42,629 nucleotides of DNA from contig SYHW01000057.1 of the NCBI GenBank assembly GCA_005799065.1, positions 1 to 42,629 on the forward strand, in the 5' to 3' direction. Below, piece after piece: positions 2 to 18,012 of the stretch (within the stretch, counting starts at the first letter, position 1; each line of letters begins with the position of its first letter). This DNA comes from Bacteroidota bacterium (GTDB lineage Bacteria; Bacteroidota; Bacteroidia; UBA7662). The notes beneath the pieces were generated by a model, which was not told the DNA's origin, made no database searches, and saw only the letters and a list, made by a program, of their open reading frames with translations. Made by a program: the position numbers and the translations under genes.

Positions 2-1606
2 TTGCTGCCCGTTTGGGCCACGGAAGGTTGGTATACCTTCGATGGACCGGCGCATCTATACAATGCCGAAGTCATCGGCGAATTGCTGTGGGGTCATGAG
101 CCCCACTTTTTGAATTTCTTCTACGAGATTCGTTGGCCACCGTCACCCAACATGCTCTTTTATGTTTTTGCTGCACCTCTTTCGCGGGTGATGGATATCA
201 TGTGGATCGATAAACTCTGGGCAACACTGCACGTCTTGGTTTTCGGTATGGGGTTTAGGTTTTTTCTGTTGGAGATTGCCGGTGGGGGCCGCGGGTCGGG
301 GGTGGGTCGACTAGCCGCTTGGGCTTCGTGGGTGGGCTTATATGCGGTGTTTCATCGCCATTTTTTCTTAGGTCAATACAACTTCGCTATGGGCATCGGC
401 CTGATGGGGTGGACTCTGGGTTATTCATGGCGTTGGATTATGCATCATCGGCCTCTTTCCTGGCCATTGGTACGCTTAGCCGGTCTTCTTACCCTTCTTG
501 GGGCTAGTCACCTCGTCGGTTTTGCTGCGGCTGGGGTAGTCATCGGGCTGATGCTGATTTGGTTAAATGGCCGGCAAACCAGGCAGTTTTTGACGCGCAT
601 TCTTTGTCTTTTGGCCGTATCCAGCCCCGTTTTAGTCATCAACCTATATTATTTGTGGCAAAGCAAGGGTACGGGCATCACCCGGCACATCGGTCATTAT
701 GACCTCTTAGGGCAGTGGATCCGACTGGAATCGTTGACCTCGTTCAATCCTCCCGTAGAATGGCGGACTATGATCGGACTGTTTGTGTTGGCTATTTTGA
801 CCCTACCCATGGCCGTAATGGCCGTCCATCGCAGACTACAAAGATCGAACGAATGTCGACCACGTGCCGATGGAGCCTGGGCCTTTCTTCTATCGTGCAG
901 CGTCCTTTTTGTGCTGATGTATTTAATCATACCCGATGAAAGCCGCAATTCCGGCTATCTGAGTAGTCGCCTCGCCCTCATCAGTCAGATGTTCTTTCTG
1001 GCAGGGGGCGTATTGCTTTTGGGTGTCGTTCCAAGCGCTGTTCGACGTCTGACATTGGCATTGCTCTTGCTTTTGCTGCCTTTTCGTGTGGCCTACTACT
1101 GGAAGGTCGAAAGAAGCCTAGGACGCGATTTGTCGGAAATGCGGAGGGCAACGGCACAAATTCCCACTGAAAGCACAGTTCATCAGGTTAATTTGAGCAA
1201 CAACTGGATGCACGAACATCTGAGCATGTCTGTTTCCGGTAGGGAGATTGTTCATCTGAAGAACTACGAAGCCTATCTCGACTATTTTCCTTTGGGCTGG
1301 CGAATGGGGTCGCTCCAACCTTGGATGACCCACGCAAACTATTGGAAAAACTGGCCTCCTTGTCCGGATACTGCCGAATTGGCCCAACTTTCATCGGCTC
1401 CAATGCCCGACTTCTTGATCGTTTGGGATGACGGGAGCATGATGACCGCAATGAATGAAACGATAGACTTTGATTGCCGTGAACTACTTTATGGCTGGCT
1501 TTCCCTGAATTATCTCAAACTCCCTGTTTCAGAATCAGAACGCTGTAGTCTTTGGAAAAGAAAATTGAAGTCAAATTCAAGCAGGGGTACGCGCCCGAAC
1601 AAGTAG
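2..1606 (+). CDS. Polytopic membrane protein, GT-C glycosyltransferase-like (5' partial)
   Basis: The frame is open from the left edge, so the true start probably lies outside the window; the first usable codon is a TTG at position 2. The product has about ten hydrophobic segments spread over its first ~370 residues, followed by a soluble C-terminal domain of ~160 residues. Near the N-terminus the motif DGPAHLYNA sits in what would be the first extracytoplasmic loop. GT-C family lipid-linked sugar transferases carry their acidic catalytic residue in this place, and the overall layout (multi-TM core plus soluble tail) also fits. The family assignment rests on topology and this one motif and is tentative. 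The 3' end overlaps the convergent methyltransferase gene by 30 bp. It could equally be an uncharacterised membrane protein. Confidence 0.6.
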   Translation: MLPVWATEGWYTFDGPAHLYNAEVIGELLWGHEPHFLNFFYEIRWPPSPNMLFYVFAAPLSRVMDIMWIDKLWATLHVLVFGMGFRFFLLEIAGGGRGSGVGRLAAWASWVGLYAVFHRHFFLGQYNFAMGIGLMGWTLGYSWRWIMHHRPLSWPLVRLAGLLTLLGASHLVGFAAAGVVIGLMLIWLNGRQTRQFLTRILCLLAVSSPVLVINLYYLWQSKGTGITRHIGHYDLLGQWIRLESLTSFNPPVEWRTMIGLFVLAILTLPMAVMAVHRRLQRSNECRPRADGAWAFLLSCSVLFVLMYLIIPDESRNSGYLSSRLALISQMFFLAGGVLLLGVVPSAVRRLTLALLLLLLPFRVAYYWKVERSLGRDLSEMRRATAQIPTESTVHQVNLSNNWMHEHLSMSVSGREIVHLKNYEAYLDYFPLGWRMGSLQPWMTHANYWKNWPPCPDTAELAQLSSAPMPDFLIVWDDGSMMTAMNETIDFDCRELLYGWLSLNYLKLPVSESERCSLWKRKLKSNSSRGTRPNK

Positions 1607-2374
1607 ATTGGGCGTAAGGATCAGGCCTCGACTGCTTCGGGCCGTAGCAAACAGCTCTAGGCGCCAACGTATCGAAAGAACCTGGTACACCAATCGTCTG
1701 GCGATCTCCTTCCACCAGGGATAGACCCGCATGTGGGAAGGATAAACGCCAACCTCATGGTACCCAGTTGACAACAACAATTGGCGGATAGACGTGGTGT
1801 TAAACAATGTTTCGTGGGTAAAATCGCCTGAGGCATATAAGTGTGGCCAAGGAGAATCCATGTTAGGTGTTCGCAGGTACAATCTACCCTTTGGCCTTAG
1901 GGCCTTTAAGACCATAAGCAGTAGTTCCACAAGTTCAGATTTGGTCAGATGCTCCACAAGGTCCATGCAAAAAACAACGTCGAACTGGCCTGACCGATCA
2001 TTCAAGAATTTTATGGCGTCTGCTTTTTCTACTTCTATAATCCCAGATTGCTGGGCAATTTGGATTTGCTCTTCGCTCACGTCGATTCCATAGGTGTGTT
2101 GGAACCCCATATGCTTAAGAGCCCGGATTAAACTCCCATTGCCACAGCCCACATCCAAAATATGGGCGTTGCGATCCAAATCCTGAAGGATCGGCCCCCA
2201 CTCCCGCTGAAAGAGCTGCGCCTCAGACGACTGCAATGCACGAGCGTCCAATCCGCTGTGCTGGCTTGTGTGCCTGCTGTGGTAGCGCTCGTAGAACAAA
2301 TCCCTATAACCCATGGCCGAAAAATAAGACAGAAGCCGTGAATTGAGATGAAAATCTTTGCTCCCGTTATTCAT
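1577..2374 (-). CDS. Class I SAM-dependent methyltransferase
   Basis: This 265-residue protein has a clear class I Rossmann-type SAM-binding core. Motif I reads ILDVGCGNGSL, the acidic end of strand 2 follows in GIDVSEEQI, motif II lies around DVVFCMDLVEHL, and LRPKGRLYLRTPN is the typical post-core strand. The pattern resembles the Methyltransf_11/23-type enzymes that act on small molecules, lipid quinones or sugars; the substrate cannot be read from the sequence. The ATG start overlaps the end of the MotB-like gene by 8 bp, so it is probably translated from the same mRNA as the motor/pilus operon and is its last gene. Whether it modifies a component of that machinery or simply hitchhikes is unknown. 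Confidence 0.8.
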   Translation of the reverse strand: MNNGSKDFHLNSRLLSYFSAMGYRDLFYERYHSRHTSQHSGLDARALQSSEAQLFQREWGPILQDLDRNAHILDVGCGNGSLIRALKHMGFQHTYGIDVSEEQIQIAQQSGIIEVEKADAIKFLNDRSGQFDVVFCMDLVEHLTKSELVELLLMVLKALRPKGRLYLRTPNMDSPWPHLYASGDFTHETLFNTTSIRQLLLSTGYHEVGVYPSHMRVYPWWKEIARRLVYQVLSIRWRLELFATARSSRGLILTPNLLVRARTPA

Positions 2375-3050
2375 AGTATAAACGGATTACAATTCTTCGG
2401 TTTATATCCTGTTTTTGAGGCAAGAGTTTCATTTCTGCATCACGATCCACCACCAAAGAATGTGCATCTCCAAAGCCTGAGGCCTTCAATTTATCGGGCG
2501 CAAATCCATACTCAATGAATAACCGAACCACACCCGAGGCCCGTGCTGCAGACAGATCCCAGTTATCAGCAAAGCGGTAATTCTTGATGGGTGCGCTGTC
2601 GGTGTGCCCCTCCACATCGATTTTAAAATCGACCGGGCTCATTTGTCGAACATGACTGATAATTCGCTCTACTATTCCTCGGCCATCGGGCAGGAGTTCT
2701 GTTCCGCCAGACGCATACAATGAAGCCCCATTGATGATCGTTCGAATTTCATATTTCTGAGCATCTAACGTCACTTTCTTGTTCTGAATCTCCTCATGCA
2801 ACGCGCGCTCAAGGCTCATTTTGAGGGTTTGGATGGGAAACGAAATGGGCTGAGCGGCTGAATCGCTGGTATGTTCGGAACCAGAACTCATCATGGCATT
2901 GAATCGCGGATCGGATGAAGCAGCGATGAGAATGAAGAAGGTAAGGAGTAGGGTTACCGTATCCAGAAAGGTAGCCTGCCAGGCATCGGGGTTATCGGGG
3001 GGTAATTCCGACTCGGACTTTTTGCGTCGTGGGTTTTTTGATTCAGGCAT
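2367..3050 (-). CDS. motB: MotB-like stator protein with OmpA peptidoglycan-binding domain
   Basis: The 227-residue protein has a short basic, proline-rich N-terminus, a single transmembrane helix (about residues 28-45) and a C-terminal OmpA-like domain. The helix contains FLDTVTLLLTFF; by position D30 matches the ion-carrying aspartate of MotB (D32 in E. coli). The OmpA domain is recognisable from IDVEGHTDSAPI, NWDLSAARA, the KASGFGDA turn and the NRR segment near the end, which are the peptidoglycan-contacting elements. In the MotB family this protein anchors the stator to the cell wall and forms the ion path with MotA. It lies 58 bp downstream of the MotA-like gene and overlaps the methyltransferase by 8 bp. 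No flagellar gene follows, so it probably drives a non-flagellar device. TolR/ExbD is less likely because of the full OmpA domain. Confidence 0.88.
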   Translation of the reverse strand: MPESKNPRRKKSESELPPDNPDAWQATFLDTVTLLLTFFILIAASSDPRFNAMMSSGSEHTSDSAAQPISFPIQTLKMSLERALHEEIQNKKVTLDAQKYEIRTIINGASLYASGGTELLPDGRGIVERIISHVRQMSPVDFKIDVEGHTDSAPIKNYRFADNWDLSAARASGVVRLFIEYGFAPDKLKASGFGDAHSLVVDRDAEMKLLPQKQDINRRIVIRLYYE

Positions 3051-3108
3051 GCCAGTTTTCTATCGGATTTATTTTGTCAGTTTATTAATTCCACCTATTC
3101 CCCTACCA

Positions 3109-3882
3109 TCAATCGCGCGACATAGTAGTTAGTTGATCTGAAATGTACATATCCGGCTTTCCTTCCAAAAGCAACAGAATGGCGGCTAATTCTCGCTCTC
3201 GTCGTCTTGTGTTCAAGCGCGATGCTCTGGTAAATTTTTTAGCCAATGGGAACCAAAAAAACTGAGTGAACATCATCCCATAAAAGGTAGTCATCAGGGC
3301 CAATGCCATTCCGCTGGCCAAACCTGATGTGTCACTGAAATTACCCAACATCACGATGAGTCCCATTAAAGTACCCAGCATGCCAAAAGCGGGCGATGCC
3401 CCCGCCAGCATATTGGACACGAGTACAGGTACGGTCTCTTCTTCCTGGATCATTTGAATCTTGATATCACCCAATACGGCAATCTCTTCGGCTGTATAAT
3501 CCGTAGAGATCAACTCAGCCAGAAAGCATCTGAACTCATCCGTTTGCTGCTCGGCCGTTTCCTTCAACACTTGTGCACGGTTTTTCCTCATGCCCTTCAC
3601 CCAAACCAAGCAATCATCCACATGAGCCGCTTCCGCTGTTTTATGTGCGGAACCTTTGGCTGGGAGTAACCCCTTTAGGGTGTCCAAGACTTGCGCACCC
3701 GGAAAACAAGCGAAAACCTGGAACAAACTCCCCCCCACGATGACCATTAAGCTGGGAATATTCACAAGCATTTTCACAATTCCAGTAAACAAATCGGGTG
3801 GAAACAACGTAAACCCAAAAGAATCAGCGCTCCCGACAAAAAATACCAACAAACTGATCAACAACCCCAAAATACCTTTCAT
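3109..3882 (-). CDS. motA: MotA-like stator channel subunit
   Basis: I place the start at the ATG at 3882, giving 257 residues that open directly with a membrane helix and lie 11 bp after the upstream stop. A longer frame reaches 3948 but would overlap that gene by more than 50 bp. Four hydrophobic segments lie near residues 2-18, 36-60, 164-181 and 191-213, with a ~100-residue cytoplasmic loop between the second and third, as in MotA. The stretch SPAFGMLGTLMGLIVMLG and the later WFPLAKKF carry the two conserved prolines (P164, P212) that match P173 and P222 of E. coli MotA. Charged residues in the loop (R99, R102, E108) lie roughly where MotA contacts FliG; that alignment is by eye. With the MotB-like partner it should form a proton- or sodium-driven stator. 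Confidence 0.88.
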   Translation of the reverse strand: MKGILGLLISLLVFFVGSADSFGFTLFPPDLFTGIVKMLVNIPSLMVIVGGSLFQVFACFPGAQVLDTLKGLLPAKGSAHKTAEAAHVDDCLVWVKGMRKNRAQVLKETAEQQTDEFRCFLAELISTDYTAEEIAVLGDIKIQMIQEEETVPVLVSNMLAGASPAFGMLGTLMGLIVMLGNFSDTSGLASGMALALMTTFYGMMFTQFFWFPLAKKFTRASRLNTRRRERELAAILLLLEGKPDMYISDQLTTMSRD

Positions 3883-3893
3883 GTCATTTGATC

Positions 3894-4451
3894 TTATCTC
3901 GATGTATCGATCCGCGGAACTGTATCTGCAGAGGAACCTGTTTGCCAAGGCTTTCGTGGAATTCTAATGGCACGGCGTTCAACGAGTGAATCCATTTTCC
4001 ATGCTTCGAGCCAACATGAATCCGCCCGTTTTGAAAATCCCTGCACCTCAAATACATTGCCTAAAGCGATGAGTACATCCGGCGAAGACAGCCATGTATT
4101 AGCCTGAAGCAGCAGTTGTTCGGCTTCCCGATAACGCCCCTCATACAAGGATTGCTGTGATTTTACAATATTACCGATCACCAAATTGGCTAAAAGTGCA
4201 TATTCCGCATCGAGTAAATTCATGATTTGGCGGTTAACGGTGTCTGCACGGACCCGGCCTAAAGTCTGAAGAGATGAGTCAGCTGATGCCCCAAAATTTG
4301 TCGTACTTCTGCGCCATCGGAGGTTCCTGGAGCAACCCCAAGTTAGGTACAGCACCGTCAAAAGCACAATAACAAGCATCAACCCATGAAAACGCGGATC
4401 TGGCCATTGAGCAAGTTCGTTGGGGTTAGATTCCACACGGTAAAGGCTCAT
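3894..4451 (-). CDS. Membrane-anchored TPR-like protein of the motor operon
   Basis: This 185-residue protein has a short hydrophilic N-terminus, one transmembrane helix (about residues 22-40), and then a region predicted to be mostly helical. The segment SLYEGRYREAEQLLLQANTW, followed by a second helix pair around VLIALGNVFEVQGFSKRADS, has the size and small-residue spacing of a TPR pair. The start ATG overlaps the stop of the FliF/FliG-like gene in an ATGA, and the MotA-like gene begins 11 bp after its end. It therefore sits between rotor and stator genes. No catalytic motif is visible. A plausible role is a scaffold joining the inner-membrane motor to the TPR-like tail of the usher, but this is inference from position and fold type only. 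Confidence 0.75.
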   Translation of the reverse strand: MSLYRVESNPNELAQWPDPRFHGLMLVIVLLTVLYLTWGCSRNLRWRRSTTNFGASADSSLQTLGRVRADTVNRQIMNLLDAEYALLANLVIGNIVKSQQSLYEGRYREAEQLLLQANTWLSSPDVLIALGNVFEVQGFSKRADSCWLEAWKMDSLVERRAIRIPRKPWQTGSSADTVPRIDTSR

Positions 4452-6400
4452 GCTGCTTGTGCTATTGGTTCAGAACGATCCACTTCCAGCGTTTTCTTCG
4501 TGGTGGCCAGTTCCTTAAGAAATCTACGGCTGGCCTCACCCTGTTTTTCAGGATTTGAATCTAAAAGCTCTGCCATTTCCCATAACATACTCTGCTCTCG
4601 CTCGGGTCGTCCATCGAGAACACGTCTACCCACCTGCTCATCGATTGTTATTAAATGAAGTAATTCCTCCTTGCTTAATATTCGGGCGGCAATAGACAAT
4701 TGATGATTTTCAAATTGTTCTAAATCAGACCATAAAACCGTTCTGCTTCGAAGGAGGTGTGCCAGATCCGAATCGATTAAATTCAAACGCTCCAAGAAAT
4801 CGGCTTGTTGTGCCAAAGGCTGAGCGAACATGAGTCCCTCAGCAAGCTTCGTTAAGTCCGCTTTTGGGTCGATCTGCCCCGACTTTTGGATTATTTGGGT
4901 CGTAATTTCCCATTCCAATGATCTGATTTGAAGGGCATTTGGCTCTGGTGTTTTTTTACTGGCTCGAATCAAGCCAAAGGCCGTTTCCAAACCTAATCGC
5001 CGAAAAACAAGTTGTCTGATGGCCTCTGGTAAGGAAAATACCATAAGCCAACCGTGATCTGCCGTATTCTCCTCGATCAGCCGTACTTTAGAATCTACAT
5101 CGACATGGTGCAAAACAGATAATCGTCCTTTTGCCTCCATGTCATGTAAACGCGCAAACCACTCCTTTGCCGCAGACTCAAAGTCATCAGCCGCTTTGAG
5201 TAATTCCCATCTTCGTTCTTTGAGTCCACGCGTCAACCGCTCAACCGACTCGATGCACATCCACCGAGACAACAGCGCCACCAATCCATCTCTTCTATGG
5301 CCTAAAAGACATAGAATTTTATCAATGGCTGTTTCGCTTTCCAATACCCAAGCGTCGAGAATAAAGGCCACTTCCTCAGGTCGGTTGATGATCCGCGCTT
5401 CCAGTGAAGACCGAGCTCTTTCCGCATACACTGTCGGTTGGCCATCCATGAAGGCTGTCTGCTGCTGGTGCGAAAAAACAGTGCTCGATTCGTGCTGTAT
5501 TTCACCACTCGAAGATGTCTTTACTAAACTCGGTATTGACTCAGACATGCTGAAAGGGGCTCCGATTGTCGCTGCGCCAGCCGTGCTGGTCTGAATTTCC
5601 TTGTTTGCACGCGCCTTTGATAAACGTATTATTGCCCAAAGCATCATGCCCGCCCCTATTAATAGAGCGATGGAAATGAACAAAGACATGGTCTGTCCCA
5701 TGTGCCTGATCGCCTGTAAACTCTTGGAGTGCTGGGTTGAATCGGAGCGCAACTGGGCATCCATCACTCTATTGGTTACAGAGGACAAACTTCGATCGGG
5801 AAATCCCACCATTTGTACCACAATGGCATCACCCCGTTTATCGTCAAGTCCGAGTGTCGTGTGGATCAAAGCGGTTATGAAGTCAACTGCTTTTTCGTTG
5901 ACCAGGCTATCGAACAGCAAATTCACCGTTATTCTGCTGATTGATATAACTTCTCCTGATTGCGTTGTTACTTGAAGAGTTGACTGATCCTCCGGGAACA
6001 AATTGCTTTGCTCAGCGCGGATTTCTTTCGTTTTTTGAATACGTCTATTATAGAATGGCAAAGCAGGCAGCATCTCCATATCGTCCTCATCCGCGCCTGG
6101 ATCAGTCTCTTTGCCCCGAACAACACCTTGTTGTCTTGGGGATTTACCCCGGGCTTCTGAGTTAATATCACCCTGTATGTGTATGCTCAAATGAAAAATT
6201 GAAGGGTCGATGTAGGTGCCAACCAGTCGATTCAAATAGGCTGTCATCGAGCTTTCAGACTTAAACCGCTCCCATTCCGACAATGGTCGGGCGTTGGCTT
6301 CAATAAACACGAGTAATGAATTCAGCATACCCATCAATATGATAACATAACCCCGCTTTGCACGTCCGAACCCTGGAAGAAATTTGGTGATAAGGATCAT
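4448..6400 (-). CDS. FliF (C-terminal part)-FliG-like fusion, rotor candidate
   Basis: The protein has 650 residues. An N-terminal transmembrane helix (~18-36) is followed by MTAYLNRLVGTYID (52-65), which resembles the start of the FliF C-terminal domain. A charged disordered stretch (~80-130) leads to a segment at ~153-202 containing GLDDKRGDAIVVQMVGFP, close to the FliF ring-building signature 'GfDxxRGDxVxV'. A second helix lies at 237-260. The long cytoplasmic part looks FliG-like. Residues ~554-632 align without gaps, by eye, to the FliG C-terminal torque domain; R601 falls on E. coli R281 and E608 on D288, while the position of D289 is M609. The N-terminal YscJ-type rings of FliF are missing. 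Start and stop both overlap neighbours by ATGA. It is probably the rotor ring for the adjacent MotA/MotB-like pair. Homology is remote and needs profile or structure comparison. Confidence 0.7.
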   Translation of the reverse strand: MILITKFLPGFGRAKRGYVIILMGMLNSLLVFIEANARPLSEWERFKSESSMTAYLNRLVGTYIDPSIFHLSIHIQGDINSEARGKSPRQQGVVRGKETDPGADEDDMEMLPALPFYNRRIQKTKEIRAEQSNLFPEDQSTLQVTTQSGEVISISRITVNLLFDSLVNEKAVDFITALIHTTLGLDDKRGDAIVVQMVGFPDRSLSSVTNRVMDAQLRSDSTQHSKSLQAIRHMGQTMSLFISIALLIGAGMMLWAIIRLSKARANKEIQTSTAGAATIGAPFSMSESIPSLVKTSSSGEIQHESSTVFSHQQQTAFMDGQPTVYAERARSSLEARIINRPEEVAFILDAWVLESETAIDKILCLLGHRRDGLVALLSRWMCIESVERLTRGLKERRWELLKAADDFESAAKEWFARLHDMEAKGRLSVLHHVDVDSKVRLIEENTADHGWLMVFSLPEAIRQLVFRRLGLETAFGLIRASKKTPEPNALQIRSLEWEITTQIIQKSGQIDPKADLTKLAEGLMFAQPLAQQADFLERLNLIDSDLAHLLRSRTVLWSDLEQFENHQLSIAARILSKEELLHLITIDEQVGRRVLDGRPEREQSMLWEMAELLDSNPEKQGEASRRFLKELATTKKTLEVDRSEPIAQAA

Positions 6401-9400
6401 GGCTCCTGAGATGTTTGACCTGAAGATATTTTCAGTTGATTCAAAAACGCAGGGTCGGACAATTGAATACTGGGATTTCGCTGTAAAGACAATGCCCAGA
6501 ATTTATGGGCCTCAGATCGTTGTCCCATTAAAAATGAAATGGTACCTCTAAGCGCCAATCCATGATCGGAGGCAAACAGGCTGAGTGATAGATCAAGCAT
6601 ATCAAGCGCTTCGCGGTGACAACCCTGATAAAGCAGTTCCTGGGTTTCTACAAAAGAGGAAACCGCAATACGTGCGCGGGTTTGAAATGAATTGCGCAAA
6701 TCAAATTGATCTTTCAACCAGCCCCTGGATGAATCCAATTCCTCTATCTTGGCTTGATGAACGGGACCGAGTTGATCGTGAGGACTCGACATGGATTCAT
6801 TGGTTTGATGGGAATCAGCACTGGAAATGCCCGAGTACCCCTTGAGGAATGGCAATGCGATGAATGGATTTTGGTTTGAAGCCGTCGTCCAAAATTTGTA
6901 GGCAAGCATAGTATCTCCCTGCATAAAATGGGCTGATCCTTTCAAAGCGAGACCATAATCAGTTGGAAAAAGACCTAAAGAGCTATCAATTGTATTCAGT
7001 GCCAGGAGCCATTCCGAACCGTAGAAATGCTGTTGCGCATCGACAAAAGCGGATACACATATTCGTGCTCGTTGTTCAAGTCGCAACCGATAATCTGTCA
7101 CAAACAAGGGTCGGGTTCGTATTGATTTCTGTGTTGGTAATTCCGGGTATATGATGAATTTCACATTTTCATAATGATGTCCGTCTATGTTGGCACTGAT
7201 CACCAGAACCATAGAATCAAGGTCAACACTACCGCCCAAGTATTCCAATTGTTGTTTGTCGATCTTCAAGCAGTACGTACCCGGTTGAAGACGATCAATA
7301 AAAAAGCTGCCATCTGCATAGCTTCGAATGATTGTAGAATACGGTTTCGAATGGCCCAGAATGGATGAAATCGAAATACGTACTCCCCCCAAAGGCCGAG
7401 TTTGTGTCGATATTTTCTGCAGAACCTCCCCTGAAATGGAACCTGCCCTATATAGGGGCACATCGATACGGTGCGTTTGATTCGGACAAGCAATGAAGGT
7501 GTAACAATCGGTTAGTGCCACTAGATCGGCTTCGGGTAGGGTATTTTCATCGATTTGTAATTGATACCGCCAATAAGATTGAAGTTGAAGGAATCGCAGC
7601 AGATTGTCTTTTCCCAATAAACCTGAATAAGATTTATCCAGCCTCGCCGACGGTACCGGAACAATCAACTCCCCCAAATCATATTTTTTGTTTACATTCT
7701 CATCCATAAAAAACCGAACCGTCAGACCTGACCGACCGACCTGCTCCGCCGGAGAACCCATCAGCTTGCGGGAAGTGGCATCCCACATGACTGAACCCAT
7801 TCCAGCATGTCTTAAATAAGCCTCTGGTCCATCCGATCCCCATTGCGTTCCCCAATCGGTAGATGTTCGCCATGACCTGAAATCGTATTGAATATTCAAG
7901 CCAAAAAGCAAGCCCTGCCCCCGTATGGGTCGTGAAGCGTTGAGTTGAAGTCTACCTGAACGTCCGATATTCTTCGCCACAGAAAATCTGAACTGTCCAC
8001 CGCTACTGCTTTGGGTAGAAAATTTCTTGAAATCAGTGGTTAGGGTTCCTCGGAAACTGAGTCCCTGAATAAATTGGGGTACAAACCCCCATCTGGGCAC
8101 AAGAAACACGGATTGCAAGGCCATTTCCTGGTTGTTTTGCCATTTGTTTCTGAATAGATCTCCTTGCTTGGCTTGTGTACCTATTGCCTTGAAATGTAAC
8201 CGGTTCGTGAAGAGCCCCTGGTTCCAAAGTGCGTCGGCAGACCAAACGACTTTTTGAGCTCCGAGCGTACTCGTTAACTCCCCGTCGATTCTGAATCCCA
8301 ATGGCCTTTGCTTAAAACTTAAAGGCATGATGTGTTGAATTTGTATCTTTTCACCCCTTTCCTTAGATAATTGAACTGAATTGGATCGATTTATTCCCTT
8401 AAAATTATCGTAGGTTATGGTGGTGCTCATTCGGTTGGAGAATATCGTCGCCAAACTCATTCTACTGCTGCCCTGACCATCCAAAGAAACATTCAGCAAG
8501 TATTGTTGCAAGATTCGGGCATGAAGCGAGCCACTGGGTCTAAAATGGTAACCCATTGAATCTATATTGGTGTGCATACAAAGACGAGCGGACATCTCGG
8601 GTATAATTCCTGCTTCGACTTGACCGACGGACGTCCACTTTGTTTGACTTAACTCGCTTTGACCCAATTGGAATTGATAGTTGATTTGTCCCGCCGGCAA
8701 AAAAGCAAAAGGAATATTCAATTGTCGATGTTCAATAATTTCTCTCCCGTCCGGCGTATAAATTTTAAGTTCCACAAGCGATTGTCCGTAATTCATGGGC
8801 AAGCGAAAAACGAACCTACCTAAAGAATCTGCAATTGTGTAGTCGATGAGCCGCCCCGAAAACCAAAGGTCCACATCAGAATGCGGCTCCGTTTGCCCTT
8901 CCAATATATTATCACCCATTGTTTTTCGTGGCATGATCTGCGCATTGCTGATATAAATCCCCTTCACCAAGGCACCTGAAATTCCACTAAATGTTGATTT
9001 GCCAATTAATATTTGGGCAGGCGCCAGTGCGTAGCGATCTGAACTTCCGCGGGAGGTGACATACCGCCAATTCGTCAATTGTCTACCCACTGAAACCCCT
9101 TGATTAGTCTGTTGAATAGACAGACTCCCCGAAATATCACCCCCAAACAATTCAATTCCTCCCGTCAGGCGCCCTTCTAACAATCGTCCGGTAGGGGTGT
9201 AATCGGTGGTATACCTATAATCAATTGCCCCCAATCCCAACCACTTACGGTTGCGCCCCACTTGCAAATCAAGGCCTTGAATTGTGTTTGGCTCAGCTCC
9301 GGTCGACAATTGCCCACGGGCATATGCTCTACGGGCCCGCCATTGAAAGGGTAATTCCACGTCACTGGTGAAACCAATGGCCATAGACGAATGATTCAAG

Positions 9401-9810
9401 GTCCACTTCACTTTAAAAATCGAATCATACAGCTCGACTTTTAAATAGATCATGCTTTCGACCTGCAAAACATCCCCAGCTTGAACTCGTTTATGCGTTG
9501 TATAATTCAGATACTCATTGCTTCTGAGGTCGAGCATCCAAATTGGGGGATCCTGATGGCTTGAACCGATCGTACTCACACGCCCGTTCGTGTCGCGTAA
9601 AATCTTGAATGGCATTTCAAATAAGTTCAACACTTCTGTGAGCGATAGATAGTTTTGATTTTGAATCGACTTGACGTTTAAATACACTTCAGAAAATGAC
9701 GGGTGTATAAGCAGGAATAGGTTTTCATCTGCATCGGTTTGCGCTTGGGATTCAAAGTTGAAAACCAGCACATAAAGCAGCATGAGCAATACAAGGCAGT
9801 TCCAATTCAC
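6397..9810 (-). CDS. Outer-membrane usher-like protein with C-terminal TPR-like repeats
   Basis: The frame extends to a TTG at 9843, but a GTG at 9810 gives a clean signal peptide (VNWNCLVLLMLLYVLVFNFE, cut near SQA) and avoids overlap with the chaperone gene; I use it (1137 residues). A small N-terminal beta domain (YLSLTEVLNLFEM ... YLKVELYDSIFKV) and then many amphipathic strands match the alternative FimD/CooC-type ushers. The plug-like segment GIYISNAQI ... PHSDVDLWFSGRLID ... GRFVFRLPMNYGQSLVELKI is typical. After the barrel come a domain with the calcium-site-like pattern FMDENVNKKYDLGE, a carboxypeptidase-regulatory-like beta domain (GSISGEV ... GSFFIDRLQPGTYCL), and two related ~79-residue helical repeats. 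The gene follows the chaperone and overlaps the rotor-like gene by ATGA. It should secrete and assemble the pilin at the outer membrane. Confidence 0.75.
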   Translation of the reverse strand: MNWNCLVLLMLLYVLVFNFESQAQTDADENLFLLIHPSFSEVYLNVKSIQNQNYLSLTEVLNLFEMPFKILRDTNGRVSTIGSSHQDPPIWMLDLRSNEYLNYTTHKRVQAGDVLQVESMIYLKVELYDSIFKVKWTLNHSSMAIGFTSDVELPFQWRARRAYARGQLSTGAEPNTIQGLDLQVGRNRKWLGLGAIDYRYTTDYTPTGRLLEGRLTGGIELFGGDISGSLSIQQTNQGVSVGRQLTNWRYVTSRGSSDRYALAPAQILIGKSTFSGISGALVKGIYISNAQIMPRKTMGDNILEGQTEPHSDVDLWFSGRLIDYTIADSLGRFVFRLPMNYGQSLVELKIYTPDGREIIEHRQLNIPFAFLPAGQINYQFQLGQSELSQTKWTSVGQVEAGIIPEMSARLCMHTNIDSMGYHFRPSGSLHARILQQYLLNVSLDGQGSSRMSLATIFSNRMSTTITYDNFKGINRSNSVQLSKERGEKIQIQHIMPLSFKQRPLGFRIDGELTSTLGAQKVVWSADALWNQGLFTNRLHFKAIGTQAKQGDLFRNKWQNNQEMALQSVFLVPRWGFVPQFIQGLSFRGTLTTDFKKFSTQSSSGGQFRFSVAKNIGRSGRLQLNASRPIRGQGLLFGLNIQYDFRSWRTSTDWGTQWGSDGPEAYLRHAGMGSVMWDATSRKLMGSPAEQVGRSGLTVRFFMDENVNKKYDLGELIVPVPSARLDKSYSGLLGKDNLLRFLQLQSYWRYQLQIDENTLPEADLVALTDCYTFIACPNQTHRIDVPLYRAGSISGEVLQKISTQTRPLGGVRISISSILGHSKPYSTIIRSYADGSFFIDRLQPGTYCLKIDKQQLEYLGGSVDLDSMVLVISANIDGHHYENVKFIIYPELPTQKSIRTRPLFVTDYRLRLEQRARICVSAFVDAQQHFYGSEWLLALNTIDSSLGLFPTDYGLALKGSAHFMQGDTMLAYKFWTTASNQNPFIALPFLKGYSGISSADSHQTNESMSSPHDQLGPVHQAKIEELDSSRGWLKDQFDLRNSFQTRARIAVSSFVETQELLYQGCHREALDMLDLSLSLFASDHGLALRGTISFLMGQRSEAHKFWALSLQRNPSIQLSDPAFLNQLKISSGQTSQEP

Positions 9811-9829
9811 AAAATTAAACTTCCCTATA

Positions 9830-10660
9830 TTAAGGTATAACAATACTCTCTTTAAAGGTATATGGATGAGCGGCTACGATTTCAGCAGGATCGATGTCCG
9901 ATCTTTCGGTGGTAAAAGACAATCGAACTGAATAAGTCCCTGACTCCATTTTTTTATCACCGAGTTGAAAGCCGAGCTTGCGACAACCGTCGAAATACAG
10001 GGCGACAGGCCTTGAATAACGCAATACAACCTCATCATTGGGTTTGAGCACCTCAGTAACCATGCTCCCTAAAAATGGAGCGTTTCCAGTCCTATTAAAC
10101 TCATATTCCAATTGAAATTGGTTTTCAAAAAATGTCGAACGGAGCTTGGTGACCTCAATACCTGTATTGACGGATCCCGATTTGTAAAAGGCGGCGACCA
10201 CCTGTTCGAACCTCATTGTGATTTGGGTGGCGAGTCCTTCGGATGGATCGTTTTCTCCAATTTCGGCCACCTGCGGTTGGCTGCTGACCTTCACTCGGGT
10301 GAAGTATACCCCTGCTTCAGTAGCTCCTGTTGGGCGAACCTGCATCCGCACAACTTGTTTCCCCCCAGGGGGAATCGTAAAACTCTTAGGATATGCTTTA
10401 ATCATACCATCGAGGGCGTATTTCATTTTTCGAACGCTATCGTCGTACACCATCAACAACCTTCCATCAGGCAACTCGTCGGGATAGCCGAACTGAAATG
10501 AAATACCCACCTCCATGGCTACTGTTCCGGTATTCATGATGGTAGTGGACCCCACCCCTCTGCCATTGATAAAAACTGCTGCGGGGGCAATTCCAACCTG
10601 TGCCTTTGACGTACCCGAAAAAAGCAATACCCCAATCAATACCGGAATGTATGTCTTCAT
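9830..10660 (-). CDS. PapD-like periplasmic pilus chaperone
   Basis: The 276-residue protein has a signal peptide ending near SKA-Q (residue 20), and two immunoglobulin-like beta domains fit its length. The first domain contains AYPKSFTIPPGGKQVVRMQVRP (about 89-110, listed here as two parts: AYPKSFTIPPGG and KQVVRMQVRP), which matches the chaperone G1-strand region 'P..f.l.pgg.q.vri..r'. GVYFTRVKV follows, like the 'E.lf.lr..' strand that closes domain 1. In chaperone-usher systems this protein folds pilins in the periplasm by lending them a strand and hands them to the usher. It lies 38 bp downstream of the pilin gene and directly before the usher gene. The start ATG at 10660 is the only sensible one for the signal peptide. 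Confidence 0.82.
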   Translation of the reverse strand: MKTYIPVLIGVLLFSGTSKAQVGIAPAAVFINGRGVGSTTIMNTGTVAMEVGISFQFGYPDELPDGRLLMVYDDSVRKMKYALDGMIKAYPKSFTIPPGGKQVVRMQVRPTGATEAGVYFTRVKVSSQPQVAEIGENDPSEGLATQITMRFEQVVAAFYKSGSVNTGIEVTKLRSTFFENQFQLEYEFNRTGNAPFLGSMVTEVLKPNDEVVLRYSRPVALYFDGCRKLGFQLGDKKMESGTYSVRLSFTTERSDIDPAEIVAAHPYTFKESIVIP

Positions 10661-10698
10661 ATTCTATGTGCTTGAATTTCTTGTCCTCAGCTTACATC

Positions 10699-11595
10699 TT
10701 AAAGATTATAGCTCATACGAATCTCCAGGGTTCCTGAGTATCTACCTGTTGTGTTGGTCAAGCCCGTAACAGCACCCTGGGCTGCAGTAGTTGCAGCAGC
10801 AGAGGTAGTGACACCGGCCGCATTCGCTGCATTGATCACTGAATTTGCCACAGCATATGTAGGAGATAGCATTCCGCCCAAATACAATGTCACTTTTTCA
10901 GCGTGCGTTGCAGTCCCATTAAAGTCCGTACTGATGAGGTACTGCCCACCAAAACCAGAACCTTGTGGACGAGTAACTTCATTGTATTGATTGAAATCAC
11001 CCGCCAAGGATGGGTTGCCCACCATCACTTGACTGTTGCAATAGGCCGCGCCTTTACTACTGACACCTGTATTCACCGAATCCGTGCTCTGTGTACCCCT
11101 CGCATGTGCCCCTTGGCGGGCAGCTGCGCGAACAACAAAGAAAATCGAATCACTGCTCAGCGTTCCAGCAGATACGATCCGTTGGCTCCGCATTCCCACA
11201 ATGCCATTGTAGTTGGGCGCTGAGGTGGTGCCCGCCTGTTGATCCAATGCCCTGCGACCACCTATTTCCAGCAAAACAGGTTCGTTGGAGGTTCCGTCTA
11301 TTTGAATGATGCCGATGTTCGCTGTCTCTCCGAGATTGGAGTTACCCCCTGAATTTGTCGGTAAACGGAGTGGATCCAAAATAACGGCGGGTCGACCTAC
11401 CCCGGTGAGTACGGTACCAAATTCTACATTAGATTTTGTGGCGTTGTTGATCGATAAAATTTTCGTTAAACGCGCCGTAACCGTTAGCTGGTCGGTTTGT
11501 GACTGATTCTGTGCATAAGATCTTTGGACTTGAGAAAATGTAACTCCTAAACAAATTATTAATAACAATCTAATTTTACTTAATTGAATTTTCAT
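10699..11595 (-). CDS. DUF4402-like major pilin subunit
   Basis: This 298-residue protein has a signal peptide (basic start, hydrophobic core LLLIICLGVTF, cut near YAQ at ~29). The mature part begins with a strand pattern LTVTARLTKILSINNATKSN, then VEFGTVLTG, which fits the DUF4402 fold common in secreted pilin-like proteins ('l.i....l.FG.i..g'). It ends with a strand pair EKVTLYLGGML and GRYSGTLEIRMSYN, also typical of that family. The centre has Ala/Gly/Thr/Ser-rich stretches suited to an extracellular fibre. It lies directly before the chaperone and usher genes, so I read it as the fibre subunit. The upstream neighbour ends 10 bp before its start. Confidence 0.78.
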   Translation of the reverse strand: MKIQLSKIRLLLIICLGVTFSQVQRSYAQNQSQTDQLTVTARLTKILSINNATKSNVEFGTVLTGVGRPAVILDPLRLPTNSGGNSNLGETANIGIIQIDGTSNEPVLLEIGGRRALDQQAGTTSAPNYNGIVGMRSQRIVSAGTLSSDSIFFVVRAAARQGAHARGTQSTDSVNTGVSSKGAAYCNSQVMVGNPSLAGDFNQYNEVTRPQGSGFGGQYLISTDFNGTATHAEKVTLYLGGMLSPTYAVANSVINAANAAGVTTSAAATTAAQGAVTGLTNTTGRYSGTLEIRMSYNL

Positions 11596-11605
11596 AAATT
11601 AAAAT

Positions 11606-12172
11606 TTAAATGATGTAACACAATATTATTTTACCGTTTCTCTCAATTGGATATCCAAGCCACGCCGAATATCGTTCGACTGATTTTTCAAAATATGCAG
11701 GTATAATTCCTGTTTCTTTATCCATTCGGGCCATTAATGTGGTGGGATAAGAACTGATCATAGTGGATTCGACGAGACTTCCCGCCCCATCACTCAAGTA
11801 TCGGATGGTTGGTGCGCGAACCCACCAGGGATCATGTTCTATATCGAGGATAAACTGGACGTTTTCCAACGACCGAATTTCAAGCCACTTCAACGTACGG
11901 AGTTTCCTATGGGCTTGTTGGCTGCGGTCAGCCAAATCACTCAATGCCGTTTGAAGTAAATAATGGCTATTCATTCCAATTGAAGACCGATTTGCCCCGT
12001 CCCAACGGGCTAAGACCATCGAATCCAAAACCGGTTTCAGAAAAAAGTCGCCCGATACTTCCAGGTAGACCCTCATCAACTGAGCGTTCAGGTAATGAGC
12101 TGATACCATGAACATGAAGGTAAATACAACTCCAAAACGACGATACTGACAACCAAAACTGATGTAGGGCAT
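11606..12172 (-). CDS. Small secreted protein, first gene of the pilus/motor operon
   Basis: The 188-residue product starts with a signal-peptide-like stretch (FGVVFTFMFMVSAHYLNAQ, cut after NAQ at ~31). I do not recognise a family. The mature part mixes beta-rich segments with a basic helix near RSQQAHRKLRTLKW, and ends in hydrophobic strand-like segments (YSAWLGYPI, KIILCYII). The terminal strand would suit a pilin-type fold, and the position before the pilin gene suggests a minor subunit, tip protein or assembly factor. None of this is established. The gap to the pilin gene is 10 bp, so the two are very likely co-transcribed. The ATG at 12172 is chosen because it keeps the full signal peptide. 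Confidence 0.65.
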   Translation of the reverse strand: MPYISFGCQYRRFGVVFTFMFMVSAHYLNAQLMRVYLEVSGDFFLKPVLDSMVLARWDGANRSSIGMNSHYLLQTALSDLADRSQQAHRKLRTLKWLEIRSLENVQFILDIEHDPWWVRAPTIRYLSDGAGSLVESTMISSYPTTLMARMDKETGIIPAYFEKSVERYSAWLGYPIERNGKIILCYII

Positions 12173-12333
12173 AAGCTTGCATGAACCCGTTTAGGCCATT
12201 TCGGGCCAGGTTTCGGATGCAAAACTGCGCTGTATAAACTCCTTGATTGCTATGAAAAGAGCCGTACAATGAGGCCGTAGGGGTATTGTCATACTGCCCC
12301 TCCGGGTCGAATCGATTAAATCCTATCCCATTT

Positions 12334-12363
12334 CAAAATAAAGACGATTAAACTGTGCTCAAA
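12334..12363 (-). promoter_or_regulatory. Candidate promoter of the pilus/motor operon
   Basis: On the minus strand a TTTG element is followed after about 19 bases by TATTTTG, one base short of the Bacteroidota -7 consensus TAnnTTTG and with the expected -33/-7 spacing. It would give a leader of roughly 155 bases before the first gene at 12172. The match is imperfect. Nothing else was recognised in the 285-base gap 12173-12457. Confidence 0.3.
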
Positions 12364-12457
12364 AAAGAGTCAAGCCACTTCATTCCGAGTACCGTCCAGT
12401 AGAAGTCAACTCCGAAGCCCAATCAAAAGCAAAACAACATACAAATTCCCATAATTT

Positions 12458-14521
12458 TTAATCCACCAGCAGGCGCAGCACACGAGGCAAACCGTGAGCC
12501 CCTTCTACAAACTGAATCAGGTATGTTCCCCGAGGCCATGCAACAACAGACCACTCCAAACGCCCTTCTTCTACGCAAAGATCGACTGGAATTTGTCGGC
12601 CCATCAAATCAAAGACCCTCAGACTTTGTCGGGTGAATTGAGAATCAATATCATCCAAACCCGTCAATACCACACGGTCACGGGTCGGATTGGGGTACAA
12701 AACAACTTGATTGTCTGCTGTTTCAGCCAAAGATGTTGTGAGTACCCCCCGCACTACATTCCATACGTGGGCGCGCTCGGCTCCCCGATGCGAAGAAGCT
12801 ACATGAGCAGTGGCCGTCCAAACAAGTTCATGTGCTACACCAGCTGGTAAGCCTGAGGCCATCAGAACAGAGTCAATAAACGAATAGGTGAAGGTCAACT
12901 GGGTATCCGGTAACGTATTTCGCCACAAAAGTGAATCGCGATTGGGTGCCGGTCCATACAACACCCAATCGAATCTCAGGCTTCCTGCTGCCGATGGGCC
13001 CGGTGTACTCCATTGAAAAGTTAAATTCTGCGCACCTGAACCTTGTAGGGTTTGGGTGGCCTCATTTGCGGGGGTTACCAAAGAAAACCGGCCCATAAAA
13101 TTCTCGACTGTGGATTGAACCCCTAAGGTATATACCCCACCAGGCTGACCGGCCAAGCCCAATTGAACCGAACCATTGAGTGGCGTTTGACCGCCCGTAA
13201 ACCGTAAATTAACAATTGCAGCAGCGCCTGCTGCTATGCTCAATGGGAATATGGGCGGATTCTGAATGGTTAACCCTGAACCCGATGGCAGAATGGACGT
13301 GATGCGCATCGAATCTGTACCCGGATTGCCCAGAACTACCGGAAAAATAACCGTATCACCTGGCAATACCGACCCCAACTGAATGATTGAATCGATAACC
13401 GCCAGTCGACTATGGGCCGGAACCAAAGACACAGCCCGAACTTGTGTCATTCTATCCAAAAAAGCGGGGTAATCGATAAAGGGATTTCGGTTCAACTGAG
13501 CCGCTTGTATATCATCATTGCGTCGGCGCAAAACACTGTCGACAGGAAAAATTCGCAGCCAATCGCGTAGGTCATTTTCCTGAACCGCGCTGAGGAAAGA
13601 TAAATCGACCCCTGCCTGGTTCATATGCCGAACGGCGAAGTATAGAATTGCTGATGCAGCAGCCGTTTTATGGGCATCACGGGGCTCAAAAGTAGTGCTG
13701 TTGGCCTTAGAACCCCCAGTGTAGGTAAGGGTGGGATTAGGCACCCATCCAAAGGGCTTATTACCCCGCGCTGAATTGGTTGGGCCATTAGAAATGAAAA
13801 TATGATGCAAATCACTCACCATCGGTTCATTGGTGGCGCCTACACTCTGCGGCCAGGTATGTTCAGTATTCATCGAATATGGGGCGTTGTTGAGGGTGGC
13901 CGTACTAAAGTCAGTGGCTGTGTAAGAAATGGTACGACCCGTATACACACATTCGTTTTTATACGGATTGGCATGTCCAGGCTCCCGACCATTCACTTTC
14001 CAGTTATCGATCGTTCCAAACATCCGCAAACGCGCGTTGTTCGTACCGCTGTAGCCCAGCTGGGTGTAGGGAGATGATACCCTTTGGCGCAGAGCCTGGC
14101 GGAGATCCTCTCCCGATAAATTCTGGGTCGAATTGTAGTAGGCTCTTGAATAGGAGGCTTGTCCACCCAAGCCCACAAAGGCCTGTCCACCCCCCGCCCC
14201 AATCAGCAGCGATGATACATTATAAATGTTGTGTCGCGGTTGAAAGCGGATGGGGATTCGGGTTACCTTTCCCGGGGGTAAAATCAAAACAGAACTGGGC
14301 GCATAAAAAGCGGGCGTTCCGAATACACTCAAGGTGTTCAAGCGGATGGGGAGTGAATCACTACCCGGGTTAAACAGTGATACCCAAGCCGTATCATCGG
14401 CCAATTCGGTGGTGGCCATAAACGAAACCGATTGAGGCTGGTCGAACGGAAGCTGTTGGGCCACCAAATCTAAAGAAAAGAGTGTCAAAACGATGAGCAG
14501 AACAGGGAAAGGTGGCTTCAT
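12458..14521 (-). CDS. Secreted endonuclease I family nuclease with T9SS sorting domain
   Basis: The 687-residue protein has a signal peptide (to ~VAQ at 22), then a short beta domain with NPGSDSLPIRL, followed by an endonuclease I (EndA/Dns-type, beta-beta-alpha metal) domain. Diagnostic pieces are NTEHTWPQS (218-226), DLHHIFISNGPTNS (237-250), ARGNKPFGW, and FEPRDAHKTAAASAILYFAV with NRNPFIDYP further on. H221 and H239/H240 lie in the catalytic/metal region. A second beta domain with SILPGDTVIFPVVLGNPGTD follows, then a fibronectin-like region. The C-terminus is a type A T9SS signal (VVLYPNPTRDRVVL ... LRVFDLMGR ... WPRGTYLIQF). It should be exported by T9SS and act on extracellular nucleic acids, for nutrient scavenging or DNA-matrix remodelling. 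It is transcribed in the same direction as the pilus operon but separated by 285 bases. Confidence 0.9.
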   Translation of the reverse strand: MKPPFPVLLIVLTLFSLDLVAQQLPFDQPQSVSFMATTELADDTAWVSLFNPGSDSLPIRLNTLSVFGTPAFYAPSSVLILPPGKVTRIPIRFQPRHNIYNVSSLLIGAGGGQAFVGLGGQASYSRAYYNSTQNLSGEDLRQALRQRVSSPYTQLGYSGTNNARLRMFGTIDNWKVNGREPGHANPYKNECVYTGRTISYTATDFSTATLNNAPYSMNTEHTWPQSVGATNEPMVSDLHHIFISNGPTNSARGNKPFGWVPNPTLTYTGGSKANSTTFEPRDAHKTAAASAILYFAVRHMNQAGVDLSFLSAVQENDLRDWLRIFPVDSVLRRRNDDIQAAQLNRNPFIDYPAFLDRMTQVRAVSLVPAHSRLAVIDSIIQLGSVLPGDTVIFPVVLGNPGTDSMRITSILPSGSGLTIQNPPIFPLSIAAGAAAIVNLRFTGGQTPLNGSVQLGLAGQPGGVYTLGVQSTVENFMGRFSLVTPANEATQTLQGSGAQNLTFQWSTPGPSAAGSLRFDWVLYGPAPNRDSLLWRNTLPDTQLTFTYSFIDSVLMASGLPAGVAHELVWTATAHVASSHRGAERAHVWNVVRGVLTTSLAETADNQVVLYPNPTRDRVVLTGLDDIDSQFTRQSLRVFDLMGRQIPVDLCVEEGRLEWSVVAWPRGTYLIQFVEGAHGLPRVLRLLVD

Positions 14522-14658
14522 GGGGTGATAAAAGGTGGCTTCAGTTGGCGATTAAAAGGGAGAAAAAGACGTTTTTGAAGGAATCAGGTGCTTCCAATAA
14601 GGGGCTAAAATACCATTTTACCACATGGAAATGTCATCCGATTTTCCCCGATATGCCT

Positions 14659-14666
14659 TAATTTTG
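14659..14666 (+). promoter_or_regulatory. Bacteroidota -7 box TAATTTTG before the SLOG-like gene
   Basis: TAATTTTG exactly fits TAnnTTTG and ends 4 bases before the ATG at 14671. Transcription would begin at or next to the start codon, so the mRNA may be almost leaderless. No convincing -33 element was found. In the rest of the 149-base divergent gap (14522-14670) I see nothing else definite. Confidence 0.35.
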
Positions 14667-14670
14667 TAGA

Positions 14671-15279
14671 ATGACTTTAAACGAATTCGTTGCACAATAC
14701 GACCGCGCAGGATCCGTGGTGCTCTTGGAAGGAAAAAGAGATGTTGAAGCGAAGGATGCACCGCTCCTCACTGAATTAGGTCGGATACTGGCATCTAAAA
14801 CGCAACACATGACTTTTCGAAGCGGCAATGCGCCGGGTTCCGATGATCTTTTTTCCATGGGGGTAACGGAGGTCGACGCCAAGCGCCTTCAAGTCGTAAC
14901 TCCCTACGGCGGTCACAGGAGCAAAGCCAATCACGCCTACCAGACCTATTCACTCGATGAAATTGACCTGGCCAATGAACCCGATATTGTGTATCAAAGC
15001 AAAACTGGGGGGCGCAATGATAAACTGATTGACCGATTTGCTGGGGGCAACCGCGACCGTGCCAGCATAAAAGCTGCCTACCTGGTGCGCGATACCGTAA
15101 AAGTGATCGGATCTCGGGCCATTACTCCGGCAAGCTTCGGTATTTTCTACGACAATCTAGATGACCCACGCCAGGGCGGAACGGGCCACACCATGAACGT
15201 TTGCTCCAACAACCTTGTACCCTTTGTTGATCAGTCGATTTGGATGACCTGGCTCGAAATCCATTCAAGCGGTGGTTAG
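14671..15279 (+). CDS. SLOG/DprA-like nucleotide-binding fold protein
   Basis: The 202-residue protein opens with SVVLLEGKRDVEAKDAPLLTELG (helix-strand), then FRSGNAPGSDDLFSMGV around residue 50. The 'RSGgA.GaD..f' pattern is the ligand-binding turn of SLOG-superfamily Rossmann proteins (DprA/SMF, LOG-type). The rest has a second strand-rich part (RLQVVTPYGGHR, GFIFYDN-like segment near SFGIFYDNLDDPRQGGTGHT). No TM helix or signal peptide is seen, so it is cytoplasmic. SLOG proteins bind or process nucleotides or nucleotide-derived signals; the specific ligand here is unknown. It ends 20 bp before the copper ATPase and is probably in the same operon, with no obvious functional tie. Confidence 0.65.
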   Translation: MTLNEFVAQYDRAGSVVLLEGKRDVEAKDAPLLTELGRILASKTQHMTFRSGNAPGSDDLFSMGVTEVDAKRLQVVTPYGGHRSKANHAYQTYSLDEIDLANEPDIVYQSKTGGRNDKLIDRFAGGNRDRASIKAAYLVRDTVKVIGSRAITPASFGIFYDNLDDPRQGGTGHTMNVCSNNLVPFVDQSIWMTWLEIHSSGG

Positions 15280-15299
15280 TGGCACACTAATCGCTGAAT

Positions 15300-17639: not shown

Positions 17640-17641
17640 AC

Positions 17642-17863
17642 ATGAAAAAACTCATCTTTCAAACAGACCTCCATTGTGGGGGATGTGTGCGAAAAATCGA
17701 AACAGGACTCAATCAGCTTGGGGGCATTGATCGTTGGGAGGTAGATCTGCAGCACGAACAACGGCTGCTCAGTGTTTGGGGGCATGAAATCGACCCCAAG
17801 GCCGTAGAATTGGTTTTTGAAACCTGTGGGTTCGAGGCAAAACTAAGCGATTCTCAAATATAG
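17642..17863 (+). CDS. CopZ-like heavy-metal-associated domain protein
   Basis: A frame reaching back to 17483 exists, but the ATG at 17642, 2 bp after the copA stop, gives a 73-residue HMA domain with no spurious extension. The metal motif is LHCGGC, and the fold pattern (strand, CxxC loop, helix RKIETGLNQLGG, strand, helix AVELVFETCGF, strand) is intact. It probably carries Cu(I) to the adjacent CopA. The Met normally preceding CxxC in copper chaperones (MxCxxC) is replaced by L-H here. Confidence 0.88.
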   Translation: MKKLIFQTDLHCGGCVRKIETGLNQLGGIDRWEVDLQHEQRLLSVWGHEIDPKAVELVFETCGFEAKLSDSQI

Positions 17864-17892
17864 CAGATGATGCTGGTTCGAATCAGGTGAAG

Positions 17893-17994
17893 CCTCCAAA
17901 TGAGATGGCTGTTCGAACGGATCAGACATCCAAATGAGATGGCTGTTCGAACGGATCGGACATCCAAATGTGATGGCTGTTCAAACGGATGGGG
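17893..17994. repeat. Three tandem copies of a 34-bp unit
   Basis: Units run 17893-17926, 17927-17960 and 17961-17994. The first two differ in a few bases; the third has several more changes. Each unit contains the core ATGGCTGTTC and ends near ACGGAT. They fill most of the 149-base gap between the copper genes and the end of purE. They are contiguous with no spacers, so they are not CRISPR. No hairpin strong enough for a terminator was found in the unit. Confidence 0.9.
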
Positions 17995-18012
17995 CACCCA
18001 AAAAGGGTTCAA

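Follow-up and report, generated by a model that had tools for sequence, protein, structure and literature searches.

A conserved Bacteroidota operon that joins chaperone-usher pilus genes with genes for a flagellar-type motor

Introduction

Why would a bacterium encode a flagellar-type ion motor in the same operon as a chaperone-usher pilus? Few bacterial fibres have been studied as thoroughly as chaperone-usher pili, which are considered passive. An earlier note on the 42,629-nucleotide stretch of DNA analysed here (the window) had proposed that a single operon joins genes for such a pilus with a rotor and a stator of the flagellar type. This proposal is supported by a conserved gene set, by the FliF/FliG identity of the rotor protein, and by the joint exchange of an usher tail and the motor. 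If a chaperone-usher pilus is truly motorised, it would be an organelle of a new type and might give cells a new way to move on surfaces or to adhere actively.

Results

The window corresponds to one contig (C49) of a 1.86 Mb genome that is 85% complete. Nine minus-strand open reading frames had been described as a nine-gene set, and all nine are present where the earlier note had placed them, either overlapping or separated by gaps of no more than 58 bp. From the gene for a small secreted protein to that for a methyltransferase, the intergenic distances are +10, +38, -14, -4, -4, approximately +11, +58 and -8 bp. The distance between the genes for the TPR lipoprotein and MotA is approximately +11 bp with the MotA start used by relatives (position 3882), and -55 bp with a TTG start. 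Promoter and terminator scans gave results near chance level, and the TANNTTTG search was uninformative.

Eight adjacent genes of this set (2367 to 12172) constitute the conserved portion, and their order is kept in relatives. The ninth member did not stand. The methyltransferase gene (1577 to 2374), whose product was recognised by Pfam and which overlaps motB, is missing after motB at loci L014, L015 and L017, and was therefore dropped as a ninth part; it is a neighbour that probably lies outside the system.

Conserved synteny in related genomes, a check that had been named beforehand, was found in families f1, f87 and f85. Across the genera of f1, the order secreted protein, pilin, chaperone, usher, FliF-FliG fusion, TPR lipoprotein, MotA and MotB is kept at usher and rotor identities of 20-30%. 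The usher, the fusion and MotA are all present in eight of 17 f1 genomes and all absent from the other nine, with genome G010, where MotA lies on a separate contig, counted as having all three. The cassette also occurs in f87 (14 genomes) and f85 (two genomes, one with the locus at a contig edge), which are distant families of the same phylum. In our phylum survey, which covered a sample of 395 genomes and a sample of their loci, full-length FliF-FliG fusions (approximately 488 bits or more) were found in 23 genomes, exclusively from f1, f85, f87 and f94. Ordinary FliG proteins score no more than 120 bits, well below the fusions. Gene order is conserved far above chance, median gaps across the conserved loci are 1-13 bp, and dN/dS values for the operon range from 0.03 to 0.22 (0.025 for MotA and 0.07 for the pilin candidate). 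The operon is under purifying selection. A scan of genome contigs yielded a single near relative, a Bacteroidetes MAG contig with 94% identity in the rotor protein, and a search of viral contigs with the fusion and MotA returned nothing.

The FliM/N switch (PF01052) and FlhA of the type III export gate (PF00771) are absent from all eight f1 carriers, from the two carriers in f85 and from several of those in f87, and genes for rod, hook and flagellin are missing from the operon. Separate flagellar genes do occur in other genomes of f87 and f94. Because the f1 carriers lack FliM/N and FlhA, the operon is not part of a flagellum, in agreement with the earlier note, and a flagellar remnant is ruled out on the same grounds. 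Zorya-type defence systems combine the MotAB-like proteins ZorA and ZorB with ZorC/D effectors; no nuclease or helicase was noticed in the conserved cassette.

The 650-amino-acid rotor ring protein (4448 to 6400) is a natural fusion of FliF, represented by an RBM3-type domain, with FliG. Used alone against Pfam, its sequence yields weak matches to YscJ_FliF_C (1.2e-4) and FliG_C (0.078). FliG_C is matched by all eight members of its family (best 1.7e-7), an eight-sequence family profile retrieves the middle and C-terminal domains of FliG from the PDB at 2.7e-11, and a profile of 23 fusions reaches PDB FliG at 9e-42. Among these 23 fusions, Pfam detects FliG_C in 21, FliG_M in 15, FliG_N in 15 and YscJ_FliF_C in 10. 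The protein begins with a hydrophobic N-terminus (residues ~15-37), followed by a periplasmic RBM-like domain (42-198), a transmembrane segment (~234-262) and a cytoplasmic FliG portion (~320-640). An AF2 model (mean pLDDT 64, with the individual domains better) places an alpha-beta-(insert)-beta-alpha-beta fold in the periplasm, a membrane helix, and an all-helical part in the cytoplasm. When searched with Foldseek, this model retrieves FliG at the top and then FliF S-ring/RBM3 structures, with probabilities of ~1. A FliF/FliG relationship, on which the earlier note had made its reading depend, is thus upheld, and the profiles and the fold rule out a chance weak match. The position of E. coli FliG R281 is basic in all 23 fusions (R in 19, K in 4), and most of the usher-linked fusions and of those of type B have an acidic residue at the position of D289 (type B loci are described below). 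Usher-linked rotors form one clade (97/95) that is separate from flagellar FliG.

Likewise, the stator subunits carry the hallmarks of a flagellar motor. MotA (3109 to 3882, in an open reading frame that opens at 3948) matches MotA_ExbB at 9e-17. MotB (227 amino acids, 2367 to 3050), the stator axle and peptidoglycan anchor, matches OmpA (6.5e-13) and MotB_plug (5e-8) and carries a peptidoglycan-binding motif. The channel aspartate at the MotB D32 position is invariant (25/25), and residues at the MotA positions P173, T209 and P222 are kept in 27 of 27 sequences. At the MotA A180 position, nearly all of these stators have threonine, which we take to resemble the sodium-type PomA. Together with the torque domain of FliG, the system possesses the channel aspartate of MotB, both channel prolines of MotA and a peptidoglycan-binding domain, as expected for a flagellar motor. 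The gene between the rotor and MotA encodes a 185-amino-acid protein (3894 to 4451) with a lipobox, which reads LTWGC in the window, and conserved TPR units, and this protein is proposed to serve as an envelope linker. It had been described as a TPR membrane protein; the TPR assignment holds, and TPR lipoprotein is the better description for most relatives, since 16 of 22 carry a lipobox by a strict pattern.

The outer-membrane usher (1148 amino acids, 6397 to 9843) was placed by its predicted fold alone, as sequence profiles against the PDB placed neither the usher nor the chaperone, and the usher of the window has no significant usher match in Pfam. In its AF2 model, an N-domain is followed by a barrel into which a plug domain is inserted, by C-terminal beta domains and finally by two helical TPR units (residues 905-991 and 1040-1140). 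FimD and PapC fill the first 18 places among the Foldseek matches (best E 5e-25, ~930 columns matched). The barrel, plug and periplasmic domains of a chaperone-usher pilus usher are thus all found, and this body is conserved. The TPR tail (usher residues ~905-1148, 6400 to 7128) and the TPR lipoprotein encoded by the same operon are homologous, and the tail is proposed to couple the usher to the motor.

Upstream of the usher lie genes for a predicted periplasmic PapD-like chaperone (276 amino acids, 9830 to 10660), a major pilin candidate (298 amino acids, 10699 to 11595) and the small secreted protein (188 amino acids, 11606 to 12172), a candidate minor pilin or tip subunit. The chaperone and pilin of the window have no informative match in Pfam, and the small secreted protein has none. 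PapD_N is detected in just two of 13 members of the chaperone family (7e-4), and the profile matches of this family adjoin every usher. Homologues of the pilin candidate precede the chaperone in f1, f87 and f85, and the small secreted protein keeps its operon place within the family at 21-69% identity. Pilins of chaperone-usher pili polymerise by donor-strand exchange, and the small secreted proteins that are conserved upstream of the chaperone may do the same.

An usher profile search also returned many ushers that lack a motor, and 51 usher loci were compared. The TPR tail is present in all 22 ushers that reside beside a FliF-FliG-type protein and in none of the 29 motor-less ushers. Included among the 22 is L048, a second locus with an interrupted usher frame, where a tailed usher accompanies a FliF-only protein. 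No FliG or MotAB is encoded nearby, so the function of the tail may lie with the ring and not with torque itself. On a tree of usher bodies, the motor label switches at least 7-8 times, and this number is the same after removal of two doubtful loci. Tail and motor switch jointly in seven of seven independent pairs (sign test p = 0.016).

The motor-less ushers end differently. A domain scan of 28 of these proteins revealed SPOR domains in 19, OmpA domains in two and other TPR repeats in two. SPOR and OmpA-type domains bind peptidoglycan, and one or the other is found in 21 of the 28 motor-less ushers versus none of the 22 motor-linked ushers. In the motor systems, the wall anchor is located on the stator, in MotB. 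One natural pair consists of L110 (motor) and L089 (motor-less), whose ushers are 81% identical over 867 residues, with the likeness ending at the end of the body, where the tail or SPOR starts. The joint switching and the distribution of SPOR and OmpA domains indicate that the usher has traded a static anchor in the cell wall for a motor-linked tail. The co-exchange of tail and motor lends independent support to the predicted coupling, for which the case is strong.

Discussion

Sequence and fold show which parts are present, how they are ordered and conserved, that key residues are kept and that tail and motor are exchanged jointly, and it is very likely that the parts function together. We infer that they assemble into one complex that is coupled through the TPR parts and rotates rather than pushes and pulls. 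The operon would then encode a single machine that spans the envelope, in which an ion motor of the flagellar type drives the base of a chaperone-usher pilus. MotB, by its OmpA domain, would fix the MotA/MotB stator to the cell wall. As ions flow, MotA would rotate and push on the FliG part of a FliF-FliG ring in the inner membrane, and the periplasmic RBM3-like side of this ring would act by way of both TPR parts, the lipoprotein and the usher's tail. The usher and its finished pilus would thereby be turned or otherwise actively driven.

That a MotAB-driven FliF-FliG ring turns or works the usher and pilus through the TPR parts is the explanation we consider probable. Because motor-less relatives anchor the same fibre to the wall and the motor operon is conserved, the pilus is probably turned or driven by the cell. 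A FliG ring would most naturally rotate the fibre, and this output has a somewhat better than even chance of being the true one. Surface movement, active adhesion or stirring may be the use. The boldest reading, to which we give about an even chance, is of a rotary pilus: MotAB and FliF-FliG would spin a fibre outside the cell, distinct from both flagellum and archaellum, in whose evolution a wall anchor was repeatedly swapped for a motor coupling, and the same motor would also serve other outer-membrane parts (types B and C, below). Against the best explanation stand a symmetry mismatch between a many-subunit ring and one or two ushers, the fact that known ushers build pili without an energy source, and the tailed usher of L048 with its FliF-only neighbour.

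In a rather unlikely alternative, the task of the motor is something other than spinning the pilus: ion flow opens the usher, speeds or regulates subunit secretion, or pulls on the pilus base, in the manner of Ton/Tol motors. Powered secretion would share the gene set and the tail-motor link, envelope-spanning coupling is expected either way, and the 29 motor-less loci imply that ushers can work without a motor, such that the motor could modulate secretion. However, a FliF/FliG ring that keeps the residues of the torque interface is what marks the delivery of torque to a large rotor, Ton/Tol-type systems have no such ring, and close motor-less relatives retain the same fibre genes. Less probable still is a load sensor, in which forces acting on the pilus reach the stator by way of the ring and the stator signals contact with a surface, as in flagellar surface sensing. 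One operon does hold both an adhesive fibre and a stator, and flagellar stators are load-sensitive (PMC9389320), but the operon has no conserved signalling gene, and sensing might arise as a side effect of driving the pilus.

A patchy distribution in f1 (8 of 17 genomes) is what might be expected if the genes were clustered by accident, or if a decaying flagellar remnant lay beside a passive pilus. This is very improbable, since gene order is the same in three distant families, presence is all-or-none, dN/dS is low, f1 lacks FliM/N and FlhA, and tail and motor are exchanged together. Accidental clustering in particular is ruled out by the three-family conservation and the all-or-none presence.

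Comparison with known systems places the operon between several of them. It shares with the type 1 (FimD) and P (PapC) pili a pilin candidate, a predicted PapD-like chaperone and an usher of the FimD/PapC fold, whereas the known pili of this class are passive and motor-less and the system of the window adds an usher TPR tail, FliF-FliG, MotA and MotB. Its rotor and stator are homologous to those of the bacterial flagellar motor, including the channel aspartate, the channel prolines and the FliG torque charges, but FliF is cut down to an RBM3-type domain and fused to FliG, and the f1 genomes have neither FliM/N nor the export gate. GldLM, which functions in type IX secretion and gliding in Bacteroidota, is likewise an ion-driven envelope motor that acts on outer-membrane parts and surface adhesins. 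The motor here is instead MotA/MotB, and GldL is encoded elsewhere in the f1 genomes tested, which rules out the type IX secretion motor as its identity. Ton, Tol and Agl systems (MotA/ExbB/TolQ family) also use a MotA-superfamily channel to pass energy across the envelope, but possess neither a FliF/FliG ring nor an usher. The building blocks are therefore known families, and we could find no described counterpart of the machine they form in the open-access literature, consistent with the earlier note, which knew of no system with this composition.

A conserved and selected use of FliF, FliG, MotA and MotB that dispenses with FliM/N, export gate and filament makes questions about the minimal rotor and the evolution of flagella testable. 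Pairs of near-identical ushers, one motorised and the other wall-anchored, constitute ready-made natural experiments. Related motor loci of type B (f87) and type C (f94) encode the FliF-FliG fusion, the TPR lipoprotein, MotA and MotB, but no usher, which suggests that the compact FliF-FliG motor is adaptable to different outer-membrane partners. The partner protein at these loci (~365-390 amino acids) has a hydrophobic N-terminus and a C-terminal phenylalanine or leucine, and is perhaps a small outer-membrane barrel.

Motor loci without an usher and ushers without a motor

Families f87 and f94 carry the motor genes in loci from which the usher is absent. Both type B (f87; loci L043, L045, L050 and L057) and type C (f94; loci L051-L054, of which L052 is a contig fragment) comprise a FliF-FliG fusion, a TPR lipoprotein, MotA and MotB, accompanied by a secreted protein of ~365-390 amino acids that is possibly an outer-membrane protein. 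Types B and C are sister motor systems to the usher-linked one. Conversely, the chaperone-usher loci L089-L108 and L118-L126, spread across the phylum, are without a motor; most of their ushers have SPOR repeats or OmpA domains at the C-terminus and are thus apparently anchored to the wall.

Incomplete loci

Genome G437 has a second locus (L048:9357-14149) encoding a chaperone, a tailed usher with an interrupted frame and a FliF-only protein of 343 amino acids; neither FliG nor MotAB was found near these genes. This locus is a degenerate or motor-less version of the ring. At L016 of genome G010, motA and motB are absent directly after the TPR lipoprotein gene, where the DNA is repetitive (11884-13727), and the MotA of this genome sits on a different contig. 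This gap is a rearrangement or an assembly join.

Coupling ion

All aligned stators other than that of E. coli, including the window MotA (3109-3882), carry Thr at the position equivalent to E. coli MotA A180. This residue resembles sodium-type PomA and, given this resemblance, Na+ may be the ion used by the motor.

Other genes

A gene for a secreted endonuclease I (12458-14521) with a weak match to a type IX sorting tail lies upstream of the pilus operon and shares its strand. Running to the contig edge is a secreted protein of 3096 amino acids (33336-42626) that contains YDG repeats as well as a type IX sorting tail. In locus L128, an ORF of 2246 amino acids (12097-18837) that adjoins a partial usher match also matches the chaperone profile, and possibly represents a fusion between a chaperone and a giant protein.
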